6,530 nt of DNA from Lachnospiraceae bacterium (lineage in GTDB: Bacteria > Bacillota_A > Clostridia > Lachnospirales > Lachnospiraceae), in assembly GCA_031262285.1 (NCBI GenBank), contig JAISHZ010000297.1, positions 1-6,530 on the forward strand. The letters are read 5' to 3'. The notes beneath the pieces are model-generated. The model was given only the letters and a program-made list of their open reading frames with translations, was not told the origin of the DNA and did no database searches. Made by a program: the position numbers and the translations under genes. Positions within the stretch are counted from its first letter, which is position 1. Each line of letters opens with the position of its first letter. This document shows positions 364 to 6,530 of this stretch, in pieces.

Positions 364-1239
364 ATGACCATCATTATGTTTTCAAACGCAAACAATAGCA
401 AAATCGAAGTTCGACAGTTGGAATATGCAGATTGCCCGGCAGTTGTCGAAGTCTATCGCCATGAGCAAGGTTGGTACAACACGCTTACCGGCTGTCGCGA
501 TATGTTTTCACGTGGACAACGTTGTGGTTTATACCAGACAATTGCTCTACGCAATGGGATTGTGCTTGGTATAGCTGAGTGGTTGCTTGACCGCGATGAA
601 CGCGGTACTTATCTCTATTTAACTGAACTGCAAGTTAAGTCAGATTCTCAACAGCAGGGCATCGGACGCACATTGGTTGCCAATGGCGCCGGGTTTGCGC
701 GGACATATGCCGCATCAAGATTGCTTACAATCCCGGAGACAGAAACCGGCTCACAACATTTTTATGCAAAATGTGGCTTCATCAGCGAAGATGCCATATG
801 TGCGCTGACAATTCCCTCAACCACTAACGCCCGATTGTCAAGAACGTATATACAAGTGGACAGTGTTCCACTGACAGTCCTGGAGCGACCGTTTCTGTTT
901 GGCGCGGCTCAATGGTCGCCTCGGCATGAGTATCATGTGTACAACGACAAGCCATTTTTAACCGACCCATATGAACGCATCGCTTTTCGAGCTGAGAATG
1001 GCGATACGATACAATTTCGCTACAAGAGAGACTACGGAATTGCGCTCGGTTGGTGTGCAATGCCGTCAGCAGACTGCATAAGTGATACTCTCGCGCTCGC
1101 AAACACACTCGGTGTACAAAGCGTTGACTTCAAATTTTATCAGCAATACACACCATTATTCGCCACATTCGGCACAGTCGAGCAGTCGGCAATGACGATG
1201 AGTTGTGACGTACGTTCGGAAAATACACTTCCTTCTTGA
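364..1239 (+). CDS. GNAT-family N-acetyltransferase with additional C-terminal domain
   Basis: This is a predicted cytosolic acetyl-CoA-dependent N-acetyltransferase of 291 residues; the acceptor substrate is unknown. The N-terminal GNAT domain covers about residues 13-150. Beta strand 4 (YLYLTELQV) leads into the acetyl-CoA pyrophosphate loop QQQGIGR at about 96-102, which matches the family Q/RxxGxG/A signature. Motif B, FYAKCGF, follows at about 133-139. A single GNAT domain is usually 140-180 residues, so the remaining 130 residues are extra. They have a strand-helix-strand pattern ending in FYQQYTPLFATFG, which resembles a degenerate motif B, so a second inactive GNAT-like half is possible. 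The start is uncertain. ATG 364 has AAGGTG only 3 nt upstream, ATG 376 is 15 nt from it, and the frame is open back to TTG 322 with no better ribosome site. No functional link to the signalling genes downstream is evident. Confidence 0.85.
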   Translation: MTIIMFSNANNSKIEVRQLEYADCPAVVEVYRHEQGWYNTLTGCRDMFSRGQRCGLYQTIALRNGIVLGIAEWLLDRDERGTYLYLTELQVKSDSQQQGIGRTLVANGAGFARTYAASRLLTIPETETGSQHFYAKCGFISEDAICALTIPSTTNARLSRTYIQVDSVPLTVLERPFLFGAAQWSPRHEYHVYNDKPFLTDPYERIAFRAENGDTIQFRYKRDYGIALGWCAMPSADCISDTLALANTLGVQSVDFKFYQQYTPLFATFGTVEQSAMTMSCDVRSENTLPS

Positions 1240-1378: not shown

Positions 1379-2557
1379 ATGATTCGTTCCACCACCGCAT
1401 TTACCTATGAGTTAGATGACCCCGCTCTGGCAGTCAAAGAAATTATCACACAGCTCAAAAACTTTGAACTGATGCAAAATACAATCGGTATCGTATTATG
1501 CGACACTGAGTTTATCAATACAGCTATTTATAAAGAAATAGCCAGAGCACTCCCCTTCCCTATCGTCGGAGAAACCACTATGAATCAAGCAGTACCAGGT
1601 CAAGTAGGAACCTTCCTATTGACTCTTATGGTACTGACAGCGGACGATGTTACCTTTTCTGCCGGCATTACAGAGGAGATTCAGAGCGGCGGCGAAGCAC
1701 TTACACCACTAACAGAGGCGTACTATGAAGCAGCGGCGAAGCTCCCGACTCCTCCCAAATTGATCCTTTGCTTTCCGCCTTACTTTCACTTTAACGCGGG
1801 AGATATTTACGTAGAAGCATTTGAAAAATTGTGTCCGGGAGTTCCGATTTTTGGGTCTCCGGCGATTGATGATTCTTTGTCTGCTTTTGACAATTGCTCT
1901 GTCATATATAACGATACTGATACCAAAGTGAAAATGACCTTTGTCTTGATTAGCGGGAATGTTCATCCAAGATTTGAAGTACTTACCCTTACAGAGGATA
2001 GTAGACTCCCTTTCTCCGGAGAGATTACGAAGAGCACCAAGAACATCGTTGAAGAAATTAACGGAATCCCTACCGGTAAATATCTGGAGGAATGTGGACT
2101 TATCGAAAACAGAGAATTTAACGGTGGGTTGGTTTTTGTACCGTTTATGGTTGATTTAAAGAAAAAAGAAGATTATGACGGCGTAGTCATCGTGCGTTCC
2201 GTCGTTCGCTTCGATGAGAATCGCAATGGTGTATTTCAAGGAAATATGTATCAACATTCGGTGTTCACTCTTGCTCGCCCAACAGGATCGCACATTTTGC
2301 CGGCTACGAAAGAAATCATCCGACGTATTGAAAATATGCCGGATGCAAATGCGGTACTTATCTTTGCGTGTGCCCTTCGTCGTATGGCTCTCGGATCGCA
2401 AGCCCTGGCTGAACCGCAGATGATCAACGAGTCACTAAGCGGGAAGGTGCCGTTTTTGTTCGGAGACGCAGGAGGGGAAATCTGCCCGACCTCCTATCAA
2501 GAAGGGAAACTATCGAATCGTTTTCACAACTTTTCAATCGTCGCCTGTATCTTGTAA
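1379..2557 (+). CDS. FIST domain-containing sensor protein
   Basis: This is a stand-alone FIST protein of 392 residues without a signal peptide or membrane segment, so it should act in the cytosol. The FIST_N part covers about residues 10-200 and includes the IVGETT...GTFLLTLMVL core. The FIST_C part covers about 210-390. Its hallmarks are FACALRR at 329-335, GDAGGEICP at 362-370 and the closing strand RFHNFSIVACIL at 381-392. FIST domains are ligand-sensing modules. Their gene neighbourhoods suggested small molecules such as amino acids, and in NosP proteins a FIST protein binds heme and nitric oxide and controls a neighbouring hybrid kinase, NahK. The next gene here is a soluble hybrid kinase, so a sensor-kinase partnership is likely. 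Histidines such as H137, H196, H293 and H383 are present, but I cannot say whether any binds heme. The protein lacks any fused output domain. Confidence 0.9.
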   Translation: MIRSTTAFTYELDDPALAVKEIITQLKNFELMQNTIGIVLCDTEFINTAIYKEIARALPFPIVGETTMNQAVPGQVGTFLLTLMVLTADDVTFSAGITEEIQSGGEALTPLTEAYYEAAAKLPTPPKLILCFPPYFHFNAGDIYVEAFEKLCPGVPIFGSPAIDDSLSAFDNCSVIYNDTDTKVKMTFVLISGNVHPRFEVLTLTEDSRLPFSGEITKSTKNIVEEINGIPTGKYLEECGLIENREFNGGLVFVPFMVDLKKKEDYDGVVIVRSVVRFDENRNGVFQGNMYQHSVFTLARPTGSHILPATKEIIRRIENMPDANAVLIFACALRRMALGSQALAEPQMINESLSGKVPFLFGDAGGEICPTSYQEGKLSNRFHNFSIVACIL

Positions 2558-2615
2558 ACAAGCGCATACAAGCAATATTATTTACGTATGACATCTAATA
2601 TAAATAACAATTACG

Positions 2616-2642
2616 AGAAGCAGCATAGAATCAGCTTTTTTT
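2616..2642 (+). terminator. Weak terminator-like site after the FIST gene
   Basis: AGAAGC (2616-2621) can pair with GCTTTT (2634-2639) including one G-U pair, across a 12-nt loop. Seven consecutive T (2636-2642) overlap and follow the right arm. The stem is short and AT-rich, so its efficiency is doubtful, but the T run and position 59 bp past the FIST stop are suggestive. Confidence 0.25.
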
Positions 2643-2652
2643 CGGTTTGTAG

Positions 2653-2781
2653 ATGCCTAAACTTTCAAATAAATGGCAGGATGCCGGGGTAAAAGCCCGA
2701 AAATATAGTGGTATAAATGAACTTAATAAAATTTATGTTATTGATTCGCTGAATCATATTAATTCTTCCAGAAATTCTTAG
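2653..2781 (+). CDS. Possible small ORF of 42 residues, unrecognised
   Basis: ATG 2653 opens a 42-codon frame ending at TAG 2779-2781. The peptide starts MPKLSNKWQDAGVKARKYSG and is rich in K, N, S and I, with no recognised motif. Against it, there is no Shine-Dalgarno sequence and an in-frame TAG sits immediately before the ATG. For it, the composition is protein-like and no larger gene explains the stretch. It could be a small protein, a gene remnant or chance. Confidence 0.18.
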   Translation: MPKLSNKWQDAGVKARKYSGINELNKIYVIDSLNHINSSRNS

Positions 2782-2872
2782 TGTAAACATAAAGGTTATT
2801 GAAAACGTTTATAGTAGTCTAACGCATACAATAAATACTGCATATCGTATTGATTTGTCAGCAAATATACTT

Positions 2873-2902
2873 TTGACACCGACATCATGACATTGGTATA
2901 CA
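2873..2902 (+). promoter_or_regulatory. Strong sigma-A-type promoter of the histidine kinase gene
   Basis: A perfect -35 TTGACA (2873-2878) is followed after 18 bp by TATACA (2897-2902), preceded by TGG at 2894-2896 as an extended -10. Transcription would start near 2909, giving a leader of about 40 nt before the kinase ATG. It shows that the kinase can be transcribed independently of the FIST gene. Confidence 0.65.
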
Positions 2903-2932
2903 AGAGTAACGATCCTCACACAGACAGGAAAG

Positions 2933-2939
2933 AAGGAGG
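2933..2939 (+). promoter_or_regulatory. Ribosome binding site that fixes the kinase start
   Basis: AAGGAGG lies 8 nt before ATG 2948. The in-frame GTG at 2939 overlaps this site and so cannot be its start codon. Confidence 0.85.
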
Positions 2940-2947
2940 TGGAACAG

Positions 2948-5038
2948 ATGAGCGAAATGATTTCTCGCGTCGAGTACGATACGATCGTAGCGCAGCTTGC
3001 GGAAGCAAGATTGGAAATACAGAAGTTGAATCGCCATATGAGAGCCAACGAGCATTATGCGGAATCTAGCCGTTTGAATGCGAAGATTCAAGAAGATCTG
3101 TACAAAACGATGCAAAAAGAAATGGTACGCGGAGATGAATATATGCGGCAGTTGCTGAAGAACTCTCCGAATATGATATTTTTGTTGGACAACAATTTAC
3201 GGTATATATTGGGTACCAGACAGGTGGCTTCCTTTGTCAATCTAGACGAAGATACGCTCAAAGGTCGTGACTTTATGTCCATCATTTCCGGTCATTTGAC
3301 ACCTGAACTCAATCTATACATCATAGGGAAGATACAATCCGTCTTACAGAGAGGCGAGCCATTGGAGTTTGATATTGAAGTAGGTCAAAATCTTTATGAG
3401 ACCGCAATCGTCCCCTTTTTGGATACCTTGGATCAAGGGCGATGTGTATTGGTAATGCTCCATGATATCACAGATCTGGTACAAGCACGGAAAGACGCTG
3501 AAGATGCCAGTCATGCGAAGTCAGATTTTCTCTCACGAATGAGTCACGAAATACGAACTCCCATGAACGCGATTATTGGTATGACCACCATCGCCAAGAA
3601 TTCAGGCGATATGGAGAAAAAAGATTATTGCTTAGAAAAAATCGAAAACGCTTCCATCCACTTGCTCAACATCATTAATGATATTTTGGATATGTCCAAA
3701 ATCGAAGCCAATAAATTCAATCTTTCCATGACAGAATTTCCATTAGAAACGATGCTTCGTAAAGTGGTGGATGTATTGGAATTTAAGATAGAGGAAAAGC
3801 AGCAACGGCTTTTCGTGCAGATCGATGATCAGATTCCGAAAATATTACTAACGGACGATCAAAGATTGTCTCAAGTGATTACCAATTTGGTTTCCAATGC
3901 GACGAAGTTCACACCCGAACAAGGACATATTAGTGTACAAGCATTTCTCGAGGAAAAGCACGAAGAGGATTGCGTGATTCGTTTTGTTGTAAAAGACGAT
4001 GGGATTGGTATTAGTTCAGATCGCCAAACCAAACTTTTTGGATCCTTTGAGCAGGCGGATAACAGCATATCCAGAAAATACGGCGGAACAGGTCTTGGAC
4101 TGGCGATATCCAAGAAGATCGTGGACTTGATGGGCGGAACGATCTGGGTGACATCGACACCCGGACATGGCGCCACATTTGAATTCACTATCCAAGCGAA
4201 AGAAGGTAAGAATAAAGTCAAACCGATGAATATCCCTTACACAAAGCTCAACACATTACGCGTTTTGGCAGTGGATGATGAACCGGAAATAGGTGAATTG
4301 TTGAAAGCAATCCTACAAAAAATTGGTATTCATTGTGATTATGCGCAAAACGGTGAGGAAGTCGTGAAGATGCTCGATGAGGGGATCGAACATCAGATTT
4401 ATTTCGTTGACTGGCGTATGCCGAGTATGGATGGTATCGAAGTATGTAAAAGGATTCGCGAAAAAAGCAAACACAGTGTGGTGATTATGATTTCCGCGAT
4501 GGAATGGGCACTCATTGAAAAAGAAGCCTATGGAGTCGGGATAGATCAATTTATGCCCAAACCTTTATTTCCAACGGCTGTCATCGAATGCATTTACCGT
4601 TGTTTATCTATGAAAGATGGTTCAGAGCTTATACAAGAGTCGAAAGAAATCGAAAATTATGAGGGGAACTGCATCTTGTTGGTTGAGGATGTGGAAATCA
4701 ACAGTGAAATCGTCCAAGAACTCTTAAAACCAACAGGCGTTAAGATAGAATGTGCGATGAATGGTCAAGAGGCAGTGACGATGTTTCGTGCCAATCCGAA
4801 CCGCTATCATGTCATTTTTATGGATCTGCAAATGCCTGAGATGGATGGCTTCGAAGCCACTAGACAAATACGTGCGCTCGACATAGAATCGGCCAAAACG
4901 ATTCCGATTATCGCCATGACAGCCAATGTATTTCGAGAAGATATCGAACGTTGCCTAGCTTGTGGGATGAATGATCATATAGGGAAGCCATTGGATCTAC
5001 AAAATGTCATGACGAAACTGCGAAATTGGTTGAAATGA
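2948..5038 (+). CDS. Cytosolic hybrid histidine kinase (coiled coil-PAS-HisKA-HATPase-REC-REC)
   Basis: This 696-residue kinase has no membrane segment. An N-terminal coiled coil (about 1-65) precedes a PAS-like domain (about 67-185). The dimerisation/phosphoacceptor domain has H200 in SHEIRTPMN. The ATPase domain follows: N box with N313 and N317 (NLVSNATKF), G1 box DDGIGI at 350-355, F box FGSFEQAD, and G2 box GGTGLGLAI from 379. REC1 (about 438-555) has acidic pocket D443/D444, phosphoacceptor D488 and K538. REC2 (about 574-694) has E580/D581, D626 and K680. Both receivers therefore look competent. There is no HPt domain and no DNA-binding output, so phosphate probably passes to a separate HPt protein or the receivers tune the kinase. 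The upstream FIST protein is the likely sensory partner, by analogy with NosP/NahK. The gene has its own promoter and terminator, so it is probably monocistronic. Confidence 0.95.
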   Translation: MSEMISRVEYDTIVAQLAEARLEIQKLNRHMRANEHYAESSRLNAKIQEDLYKTMQKEMVRGDEYMRQLLKNSPNMIFLLDNNLRYILGTRQVASFVNLDEDTLKGRDFMSIISGHLTPELNLYIIGKIQSVLQRGEPLEFDIEVGQNLYETAIVPFLDTLDQGRCVLVMLHDITDLVQARKDAEDASHAKSDFLSRMSHEIRTPMNAIIGMTTIAKNSGDMEKKDYCLEKIENASIHLLNIINDILDMSKIEANKFNLSMTEFPLETMLRKVVDVLEFKIEEKQQRLFVQIDDQIPKILLTDDQRLSQVITNLVSNATKFTPEQGHISVQAFLEEKHEEDCVIRFVVKDDGIGISSDRQTKLFGSFEQADNSISRKYGGTGLGLAISKKIVDLMGGTIWVTSTPGHGATFEFTIQAKEGKNKVKPMNIPYTKLNTLRVLAVDDEPEIGELLKAILQKIGIHCDYAQNGEEVVKMLDEGIEHQIYFVDWRMPSMDGIEVCKRIREKSKHSVVIMISAMEWALIEKEAYGVGIDQFMPKPLFPTAVIECIYRCLSMKDGSELIQESKEIENYEGNCILLVEDVEINSEIVQELLKPTGVKIECAMNGQEAVTMFRANPNRYHVIFMDLQMPEMDGFEATRQIRALDIESAKTIPIIAMTANVFREDIERCLACGMNDHIGKPLDLQNVMTKLRNWLK

Positions 5039-5045
5039 TTTAACG

Positions 5046-5077
5046 AAAAGGACTTACTGAAAAGTAAGTCCTTTTTT
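5046..5077 (+). terminator. Intrinsic terminator of the kinase gene
   Basis: AAAAGGACTTACT (5046-5058) and AGTAAGTCCTTTT (5063-5075) form a perfect 13-bp stem capped by a GAAA loop. Six T (5072-5077) end it. It begins 8 nt after the kinase stop codon and should separate the kinase message from everything downstream. Confidence 0.93.
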
Positions 5078-5292
5078 GTGCAAGAGTTATAAAAAAATAG
5101 ATTCAATATGAAAAGTAGAAAAAATAGTTCTAATAATAATACAATAAATCGCAAAATTCAAAAATGACAGACAAAGGGGACATGAAATAAAAATAGATAA
5201 CAAATATAAGGAGATATCAATATAAATGTGATGACAGTCAGAAGAAGGTAATTAATAATGATAAAAAAATATTAAAAATGAGCAAATTCCTA
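5078..5292. other. AT-rich gene-free leader region with Shine-Dalgarno-like minicistrons
   Basis: No ORF of useful length occurs. The + strand is A-rich and holds several ribosome-site-like sequences followed by tiny ORFs: AAAGGGG before a 2-codon frame at about 5182, AAGGAG (about 5209-5214) before a frame of about 7 codons from GTG 5228, and AGAAGG before a 5-codon frame near 5258. In such composition these can arise by chance. The region ends at a strong promoter. Confidence 0.4.
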
Positions 5293-5322
5293 TTGACAAG
5301 TAGAATACCCAGGGAGTAGAAT
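5293..5322 (+). promoter_or_regulatory. Near-consensus sigma-A promoter facing the gene-free region
   Basis: TTGACA (5293-5298) matches 6 of 6 and TAGAAT (5317-5322) matches 5 of 6, with an 18-bp spacer. Transcription would start near 5329. It follows the kinase terminator and no ORF above about 40 codons lies in a plausible position after it, so the likely product is a non-coding RNA. Confidence 0.6.
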
Positions 5323-5364
5323 ATGACTACAAGTTGATTAACGAATCAGCTCGTACCGTTACTA

Positions 5365-5400
5365 TTGACGGACTGGCATGAACCAATGGTTCGGTGTCAA
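5365..5400 (+). repeat. Nested inverted repeat near the 5' end of the candidate RNA
   Basis: TTGAC (5365-5369) pairs with GTCAA (5396-5400). Inside, GAACC (5380-5384) pairs with GGTTC (5388-5392) across a 3-nt loop, extended by a T-G wobble (5379/5393). The internal loop is asymmetric (9 nt against 2 nt). Confidence 0.4.
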
Positions 5401-5407
5401 AAGCATA

Positions 5408-5451
5408 CTACGAAAGATCGGCATCAAAACATGGAAGCCATCTTACGCTAG
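5408..5451 (+). repeat. Long imperfect hairpin
   Basis: CTA-CG-AAGAT-GGC on the left pairs in order with GCC-ATCTT-CG-TAG on the right, 13 bp. It is interrupted only by bulged C5419, an A-A mismatch (5413/5445) and bulged C5448. Two further pairs are possible inside the 14-nt loop. Such bulged long stems are typical of structured RNA rather than of protein operators. Confidence 0.5.
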
Positions 5452-5523
5452 GGTCTCCTGTAGGAAGCGCTGCAGCGGTTGTGAATCGAATGTTGAATAG
5501 GTCGTATAACGATCGATCAACAA

Positions 5524-5646
5524 CGTTACACGGAGAGTGCACAATAGCGAACTGCTCATCTTCTTTTGTATAGAAGATAGATTACATCCCAAATTCAGAT
5601 GATTTACCGTACTAAAATTTCGTAGTGTAACGCAGAAACGGTGAAA
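5524..5646 (+). repeat. Interlocking complementary segments, possible pseudoknot
   Basis: CGTTACAC (5524-5531) is perfectly complementary to GTGTAACG (5625-5632). TTTACCGT (5603-5610) pairs with ACGGT plus AAA (5638-5646, one bulged G). The second helix encloses the 3' strand of the first, so the two cross as an H-type pseudoknot if both form. A 7-bp hairpin, ATCTTCT/AGAAGAT (5558-5578), lies inside the first pairing. Confidence 0.3.
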
Positions 5647-5785
5647 ACCCAAAGATTTCATTACAAAATCTGATGGTAGATACCGCAAGCAAAAGCAGGG
5701 AAGCCGATCGGACAATTGTAGAAGGGCAAAAAAGCGGGAGGACGATCTGTGTGAATCGGGTAAAGCAAGTGATTGTGTCAATTTC

Positions 5786-6176
5786 GTAAGACGGGAATGA
5801 ATGTAGAGGGAAATTACATGATTCTAGTAAAAGGACGATGAGATTCGAGTAAAAGGAACGTGTAGGAGATGCAATTAGGAAAGATGTGTAGGGGATTACG
5901 ATGAAGGGGTATGCAGTAGGATTGTCTTAAAAGGATGCATAAAGAAATGCTACAAGGGGATATGCAAAGGAATACGGTTATGTAAATGTGTAATGAAATA
6001 CGATAGAAAGAATCTAAATGGGGATATCGTATAAGGGAAGTGTAAAAGCGAAAACGTGTAAGGAACACAGTAAAAAGGGTAAACCAAAACAATATTATTT
6101 GGACATGTGTAAAAAATACCGTAAAAGGTAGTGCAAAAGATTAGGGAAAGAAATGTCGTAAAGGGATTTCAAGAAA
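5786..6176 (+). repeat. Purine-rich tract of degenerate 12-13 nt units
   Basis: Units resembling GTAAAAGG followed by A-T-rich bases and often TGC or GAT recur, for example at 5827, 5849, 5862, 5888, 5916, 5927, 6029, 6042, 6058, 6070, 6109, 6121 and 6158. The commonest step is 12-14 nt, with irregular gaps. By hand count about 70% of bases in 5801-6180 are purines on this strand. The step is not a multiple of three and stop codons are frequent in + frames, so it is not a protein repeat. GGA occurs 17 times between 5794 and 6166, moderately more than this composition would give by chance. Confidence 0.5.
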
Positions 6177-6244
6177 GTGTGTTGATGGTTTCTCATAAAA
6201 CTTCAAAAATCGGGGATGTTTGCGTAGAAGGCTTCGGAAAAGAA

Positions 6245-6317
6245 TCCGTTGAGAACGCGAATCAGAGCAGGTGAATGTTATATATTGGCAGCAGCCATGC
6301 TCTGATCGTGTCACGGA
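6245..6317 (+). repeat. Very long bulged hairpin (20 bp)
   Basis: The right arm 6298-6317 pairs without interruption. Its partners on the left arm are ATCAGAGCA (6261-6269), CGCG (6256-6259, one G-U), GA, and TCCGT (6245-6249). Bulges occur only on the left (A6260, three nt near 6253-6255, T6250). The 28-nt apical region can add GGU/GCC closure. This is the strongest secondary structure in the gene-free region. Confidence 0.65.
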
Positions 6318-6399
6318 ATGTGTCTCGTACAAAAAGTAGGTAGAACGAGAGAGGGCTTTTGGTTCACGAAAGAGGATTAGGGAGCAGAAGTATGTTCGG

Positions 6400-6421
6400 T
6401 TGTATATCAGCGGATATGCAA
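6400..6421 (+). repeat. 9-bp hairpin with AGCG tetraloop
   Basis: TTGTATATC (6400-6408) pairs with GATATGCAA (6413-6421), including one T-G wobble, around a 4-nt loop. It lies within the multiloop that the 6351-6356/6493-6498 pairing would close. Confidence 0.5.
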
Positions 6422-6448
6422 AGCGGTCTGATTGAGTATAAATAAGGC

Positions 6449-6486
6449 AGCAACAAGCCGTGTATTTTAGATACGCGGCTATTGCT
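6449..6486 (+). repeat. Strong two-tier hairpin, possibly the 3' end of the candidate RNA or a terminator of a reverse-strand gene
   Basis: AGCCGTGTAT (6456-6465) pairs with ATACGCGGCT (6471-6480), one G-U. AGCAA (6449-6453) pairs with TTGCT (6482-6486) beyond a 2-by-1 internal loop. No T run follows on the + strand. Read on the - strand, a loosely T-rich stretch follows, so it might terminate a convergent gene beyond the window edge. The G-U wobble favours + strand RNA. Confidence 0.5.
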
Positions 6487-6530
6487 AGTTATGCCCTCGA
6501 AATACATTGATAGAGCTTCAACAACAAGGG

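Follow-up and report, generated by a model that had tools for sequence, protein, structure and literature searches.

The lasting oddity of the gene-free region at the right-hand end of the window (the whole stretch of DNA analysed, 6,530 nt) is a lattice of purine runs and pyrimidine blocks that recurs every 12.8 nt on average, a feature unseen in the initial annotation, which had proposed a promoter-driven 1.2-kb structured RNA. The region is gene-free and has a good promoter, but a large RNA structured throughout was not borne out. Three readings of the lattice stand as near equals, each of them tentative and given here from the most to the least probable: the decayed remains of a short tandem repeat, a rut-like array on the minus strand, and an untranslated RNA on the plus strand. 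Although a decayed repeat is as probable as a rut-like array, it offers no mechanism. We adopted the rut-like array as our mechanistic reading, since neither of the others explains the spacing, the class-level constraint and the depletion of G all at once.

The region is bordered by the following features.

379–1239, plus strand: GNAT acetyltransferase gene (Pfam PF00583)
1379–2557, plus strand: FIST_N/FIST_C sensor protein gene (Pfam PF08495, PF10442)
2948–5038, plus strand: hybrid histidine kinase gene with HisKA, HATPase_c and two receiver stretches (Pfam)
5046–5077, plus strand: hairpin AAAAGGACTTACT/AGTAAGTCCTTTT running into T6, likely the intrinsic terminator of the histidine kinase gene
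6489–6530, minus strand: possible 3' end of a convergent gene from beyond the contig (sequence reading)

The arms of the hairpin behind the kinase gene (5046–5058 and 5063–5075) are 100% complementary, and this likely terminator forms the left border of the gene-free region. It was absent from the list of a consensus terminator scan, probably because its T run lies partly within the stem. At the other border, a minus-strand frame (6486–6530), too short for searching, terminates in TAA at 6489–6491, directly before the hairpin there, and may belong to a convergent gene entering from beyond 6530. The stretch ahead of the promoter (5040–5290) is AT-rich, with a plus-strand purine fraction of 0.60–0.77 in 60-nt steps.

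After the window's own, the closest matches of the FIST protein were FIST proteins from bacteria of several phyla. The FIST gene and the hybrid kinase gene adjoin in 72 of the 79 genome loci having a FIST alignment, the kinase match beginning no more than 600 nt after the FIST match; these loci come from MAGs and genomes placed in many different phyla, a pattern suggestive of either horizontal spread or misbinning. No FIST gene was found in viral contigs. Among 5.8 billion proteins, the acetyltransferase had three relatives (70–81% identical), all in JGI metagenomes. The codon usage of the window resembles that of several AT-rich MAG loci. Many MAGs among the FIST-related loci are, we presume, termite-gut bacteria (names such as embiratermitis help), and the window is probably of termite-gut origin as well.

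The promoter described in the initial annotation was recovered intact.

5293–5322, plus strand: sigma-70-type promoter TTGACA-N18-TAGAAT (consensus scan)

Its two hexamers match the consensus at 6/6 and 5/6 positions across an 18-nt spacer, and it is the only site scoring at least 11/12 on either strand of all 6,530 bases; an order-1 Markov model predicts 0.017 such sites per strand within 5040–6530 (1,491 nt). Transcription would start near 5329, about 7 nt past the -10 hexamer. A start at this position would lie just ahead of the first hairpin, which is suggestive of the plus direction, and a plus-strand transcript from this promoter is plausible.

We also agree that the region holds no credible ORF: the longest with an ATG, GTG or TTG start is 112 aa, on the minus strand. 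Period-3 power was 0.6–2.0 in stretches of the region and 2.4, 9.7 and 17.0 in the three genes, the contrast being small against the acetyltransferase gene (2.4). Of 16 stop-to-stop fragments of at least 38 aa, the ten searched against Pfam gave no match, nor did three further ORFs. Decay of a protein gene or insertion sequence would have had about 1.2 kb to occupy between the kinase gene and the contig end, and one 23-aa tblastn match from the 79 loci (43%, E=0.003, to a frame in locus L037) speaks for it. The missing Pfam matches, the low period-3 power and searches of phage and plasmid records, which returned only chance pieces of 29–39 nt, make this origin very improbable. Within 5860–6112, the plus strand carries seven pairs of a start codon and a stop codon (GTGTAA, for example), the majority placed after purine runs, against 2.8 expected; this post hoc count of at least seven was reached by 8/1000 shuffles.

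The lattice itself is strongest in the middle of the region.

5829–6260, both strands: purine/pyrimidine lattice with a period of 12.8 nt (Fourier analysis, run spacing, phase)

Its units appear as purine runs (AAARGGA-like) on the plus strand and as pyrimidine blocks (TCC/TTTCC-like) on the minus strand. Fourier analysis of purine/pyrimidine class over 5730–6185 gave a peak at 12.82 nt with a power of 18.4, reached by none of 3000 dinucleotide shuffles, and the strongest window of the full region had a power of 20.5, matched by 0/300. Counting purine runs of at least 4 nt, successive starts from 5829 are spaced by 11, 11, 13, 13, 13, 13, 15, 11, 12, 13, 12 and 29 nt; later spacings are less regular (10, 15, 13, 11, 6, 10, 12, 14, 25, 12, 12, 8, 17, 11, 26...). 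The phase can be traced back to about 5480: it stays between 0.18 and 0.47 of a cycle in every window from 5481 to 6338, with low amplitude left of 5832. When the units were permuted, the observed coherence was matched in 52/2000 trials, which speaks slightly for a fixed lattice and against a drifting repeat. Successive reduced block gaps had a lag-1 correlation of -0.21, which is not significant (permutation p 0.15).

To place these values, we surveyed 287 spacers, each at least 160 nt long and lying between ORFs of 110 aa or more (87 kb including the window; periods 11.3–14.5). The array ranked first with a power of 18.6, and the runner-up reached 11.3. Across 91 loci, with coding sequence included and periods of 8–20, 7 of 20,199 windows scored at least 20.49. 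Five of these lie in L078; of the other two, one spans the FIST-kinase junction of L048 and one falls within an open frame of L068.

How alike the units are bears directly on whether the lattice could be what is left of an old short tandem repeat in functionless spacer DNA, with promoter and hairpins incidental. At lag 13, purine/pyrimidine class matched at 0.65. Base identity beyond class was small there (+0.052 for purines and -0.004 for pyrimidines, with a spread over lags of 0.035 and 0.079), so the units are alike mainly as purine versus pyrimidine class, and adjacent copies are not alike in base sequence in the manner of a tandem repeat or minisatellite. Tandem Repeats Finder returned zero rows. 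Anchoring on run starts did reveal a weak consensus (T at -6, C at -5 to -3, G at -2, A as first purine, G at the fifth base, T at the eighth; all positions z 2.0 to 3.0), and a very old tandem repeat is therefore a candidate. We estimate that, once transitions are saturated, the purine/pyrimidine class of a position can persist longer than its base identity. Such decay should include indels that scramble the phase, yet permuted units seldom reach the coherence observed; the gap correlation, for its part, is no proof of a fixed lattice. Fold z scores of -4 are common in spacers (17/120). There is also a precedent in the intergenic DNA of the deltaproteobacterial MAG locus L078, which is full of imperfect 8- and 12-nt repeats. 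Taken together, decay from a repeat is a reasonable possibility short of even chances. Among the matches listed, the literature held nothing relevant on periodic purine tracts in bacterial spacers.

The repeats of L078 (MAG Gx481_bin110) occupy 1780–3200 and 4430–4850, occur also in L098, and are accompanied by very large C>G bubbles.

We turn to the rut-like array, which is suggested by the composition of the minus strand.

5650–6482, minus strand: uninterrupted C>G bubble of 833 nt with rut-like composition (area 13906)

In 1.07 Mb of fetched loci, only 3 of 46,191 C>G bubbles were larger, and all three belong to one repeat-rich genome (L098; L097 and L078 represent the same place). Between 5780 and 6260 the minus strand contains 27.7% C and 9.1% G. 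It folds mostly without excess structure, with z scores of 0.48, -1.42, -2.13 and -0.80 for windows starting at 5640, 5760, 5880 and 6000. Each subunit of the Rho hexamer binds one YC dinucleotide, and the hexamer as a whole covers roughly 70–80 nt. YC dinucleotides on the minus strand have a period of 12.74 nt (power 13.8, with 0/400 shuffles as high), while cytosines alone are not periodic (power 4.1, reached by 325/400 shuffles).

Published rut descriptors gave a similarly mixed picture. In the excerpted text of PMC6407284, RhoTermPredict seeks 78 nt with C>G and cytosines every 11–13 nt; the minus-strand bubble has C over G across far more than this minimum. The strict rule of a cytosine every 11–13 nt showed no excess, 185/500 shuffles reaching the array's count, and it also holds for numerous further stretches on the window's minus strand, those in genes among them. 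A second study, as excerpted (PMC9160355), counts (YC)N9-13 repeats. For the array, the rule for YC was reached by 21/500 shuffles. The longest YC chain was matched by 39, 22 and 214 of 500 shuffles for steps of 11–13, 11–14 and 12–14 nt, respectively. In related loci, 74 other skewed spacers showed no excess at lag 13 (-0.008); lag 12 was raised (+0.020), as was lag 9 (+0.023), a period-3 trace. A general Rho rhythm was thus not seen in the spacers of relatives. Overall, the match to Rho is good in size and composition and mixed in detail.

If the minus strand does carry an oversized rut-like array, which is possible but tentative on these data, transcription would enter from the right, either from a putative convergent gene beyond 6530 or as antisense. 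The resulting RNA would be G-poor, with C over G and mostly without excess structure across 5640–6250, and would carry a pyrimidine block every 12.8 nt on average. It could thereby offer primary sites for several Rho hexamers, with Rho reading dinucleotides in six clefts (PMC4132721, excerpted text), and transcription might be terminated before the kinase operon is reached. The class-level constraint on the units counts for this proposal, being what is expected of a pyrimidine-reading protein. Against it, the sole strong promoter points the other way. The part of PMC12350095 available puts about 80% of the Rut peaks mapped in B. subtilis antisense to genes, and a purine-rich sense strand may thus bring a rut-like antisense strand with it as a mere by-product; the same part states that no combination of descriptors reliably separated Rut from Rut-less B. 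subtilis sequences. No description of a Rho sponge, decoy, trap, titration or rut array was found in the literature searched.

The large structured RNA of the initial annotation fared less well than its promoter: hairpins were found near both ends, but the middle (5773–6192) folded no better than shuffles (z=0.02).

5328–5399, plus strand: three stem-loops (5332–5351, 5356–5371, 5374–5399; helices p>0.7)
5400–5545, plus strand: remaining 5' hairpin domain (5414–5444, 5491–5522; z=-2.76 plus, -1.16 minus)
6256–6310, strand undecided: long bulged hairpin ATCAGAGCA...TGCTCTGAT with nine contiguous pairs
6351–6498, strand undecided: 3' domain closed by GAGGGC/GCCCTC (6351–6356 with 6493–6498; pair probability 0.94 on plus)

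Compared with dinucleotide shuffles, the whole region folded with z=-4.74 on the plus strand and -4.35 on the minus strand (40 shuffles each). With 100 shuffles each, the first 560 nt gave z=-1.64 and the last 346 nt z=-4.7, in addition to the value for the middle. Among sliding 250-nt windows, only 5400–5649 (-4.05) and 6240–6489 (-6.42) fell below z -2.3 on the plus strand, and only 5040–5289 (-2.62), 6120–6369 (-3.40) and 6240–6489 (-4.81) on the minus strand. For control we folded 60 spacer segments of 250 nt from related loci on both strands (30 shuffles each), and 17 of the 120 strand-segments had a z score of at most -4. Within 200 nt, ungapped stems were no more numerous than in shuffles at 6 Watson-Crick pairs (25 vs 26.1) or 7 pairs (8 vs 9.9); at 8 pairs there were 6 vs 3.6, and 16/100 shuffles reached 6. 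Given comparable z scores on both strands, the frequency of such scores in control spacers and the lack of a stem excess, the fold on its own is no strong sign of a large RNA. The data do not support a 1.2-kb RNA with OLE-, ROOL- or GOLLD-like folding along its whole length.

Which strand is favoured depends on the part of the region considered, and the stretches compared here were picked after the fold was seen. At the 5' end, 5320–5420 gave z=-3.03 on plus and -1.20 on minus, and the first hairpin core starts 3 nt past the expected transcript start; farther on, 5500–5645 favours minus (-0.53 plus vs -2.22 minus). The 3' hairpins are about equally stable on both strands. For 6205–6350, z was -3.14 on plus and -3.23 on minus, with pair probabilities of 0.97–0.99 on plus for the 6256–6310 hairpin; for 6440–6505, which covers the hairpin at 6446–6494 within the 3' domain, z was -3.69 on plus and -4.11 on minus. 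The initial annotation had also taken wobble pairs, G-U on the plus strand in the strongest helices, as an independent strand call. That argument did not survive a strand-neutral count in which G-U and A-C were handled alike: there were 18 G-U and 11 A-C vs 15.5 and 10.9 in shuffles, and at 7 Watson-Crick pairs 6 and 2 vs 6.6 and 4.8.

These observations frame the reading in which the region encodes an untranslated plus-strand RNA from about 5329. Such an RNA would have a 5' hairpin cap and the 6256–6498 domain at its 3' end, and its purine blocks, single-stranded and set at intervals, would be where a multimeric RNA-binding protein or ribosomal RNA docks; alternatively, it would be a long leader belonging to a gene that lies past 6530. 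The direction of the best promoter, the position of the first hairpin core and the greater plus-strand stability of 5320–5420 and 5400–5545, and of 6240–6489 as a sliding window, all accord with this reading, as does a chain of 12 purine runs with steps of 11–14 nt, matched by 1/500 shuffles. The central plus strand is also C-poor, which would spare the RNA from Rho. The shuffle-like middle, the lack of a stem excess, the uninformative wobble count and the minus-favouring stretch at 5500–5645 weigh against it. In addition, the consensus scan found no terminator-like site, and no homologue appeared among the loci and genomes searched. Nor do GGA motifs (CsrA-type sites) follow the lattice, their longest chain being 2, matched by 398/500 shuffles. 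On balance an untranslated plus-strand RNA is a doubtful but serious candidate.

The GGA chain of 2 vs a shuffle mean of 2.0 does not support a CsrA sponge. GGA motifs are barely enriched overall (19 vs 14.5 expected; 60/1000 shuffles reach 19).

The searches for relatives bear on all of these readings. The initial annotation had recognised no signature of the known large RNAs, and Rfam searches at E up to 5 for the window and up to 10 for 5200–6530 returned only matches far below gathering scores, with none near those scores for OLE, ROOL, GOLLD, HEARO or group I and II introns, and neither a tRNA nor a tmRNA was found. Beside the FIST-kinase pair in the 79 loci, blastn gave only chance pieces (best E 0.008 over 47 nt) and nhmmer nothing at E 1. 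Genome blastn comprised 1147 genome searches, with some genomes counted twice. At E 0.001, matches occurred in 0/28, 1/195, 2/391 and 2/185 genomes; at E 1, they occurred in 181/296 and 33/52 (best E 0.0036) and were pieces of 17–52 nt among the matches listed. We judged the matches at E <0.001 to be chance: they comprised 24/25 nt at 6496–6520 in two genomes having the same 141-nt contig end, and otherwise pieces of 29–35 nt. Single-sequence covariance models, run under the stricter filters of Infernal and without a positive control genome, gave matches in 0/296 and 0/183 genomes for 5326–5400 and in 0/183 for 6243–6351, and across 19 sources the window itself was their sole match. Exact patterns occurred in 22, 0, 3 and 0 viral contigs, and the longest piece shared with viral contigs at E 0.05 was 18 nt. 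This lack of homologues means little, since the three relatives of the acetyltransferase sit in JGI metagenomes, outside the searched contigs.

A broader proposal would unite the two functional readings in a dedicated noncoding locus with about 34 spaced, class-level docking blocks (length divided by period) for a ring-shaped RNA-binding protein. These blocks could form either an array for several Rho hexamers on the minus strand, acting as a terminator or Rho sponge, or an untranslated plus-strand RNA capped by a hairpin domain at each end, with the purine docking sites in between. We consider this proposal rather unlikely. If the rhythm does stem from Rho binding, the region would be a natural sequence showing per-subunit Rho spacing by eye, and one could test on it directly how exacting the hexamer is about spacing. 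A plus-strand RNA would make it a candidate large RNA with an unstructured, rhythmic core, and a decayed repeat would serve as a warning that a purine rhythm and spacer hairpins can together mimic a large RNA.

Comparison with known systems places the region near several of them. Like OLE, ROOL, GOLLD and HEARO RNAs, it falls within the same size range, lacks ORFs and has hairpin domains at both ends; it differs in having no Rfam match, a middle without excess structure and no homologues found. CsrB/RsmZ-type sponge RNAs carry recurrent GGA sites, and the region shares with them many purine-rich, GGA-containing blocks, here on the plus strand, whereas its GGA motifs are neither lattice-spaced nor more than barely enriched. 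The spacer repeats of L078 are likewise noncoding and purine-skewed, with a period near 12 nt, but their copies are alike in bases by eye, while those of the window are alike mainly by class. With Rho rut sites, the minus strand shares a C>G bubble, a G-poor composition and pyrimidine blocks spaced near 11–13 nt, and it may share their low level of structure. It differs from them in extent, with 833 nt here compared with 78 nt in the predictor, and in a rhythm that resides in pyrimidine class and YC dinucleotides, not in cytosines alone.
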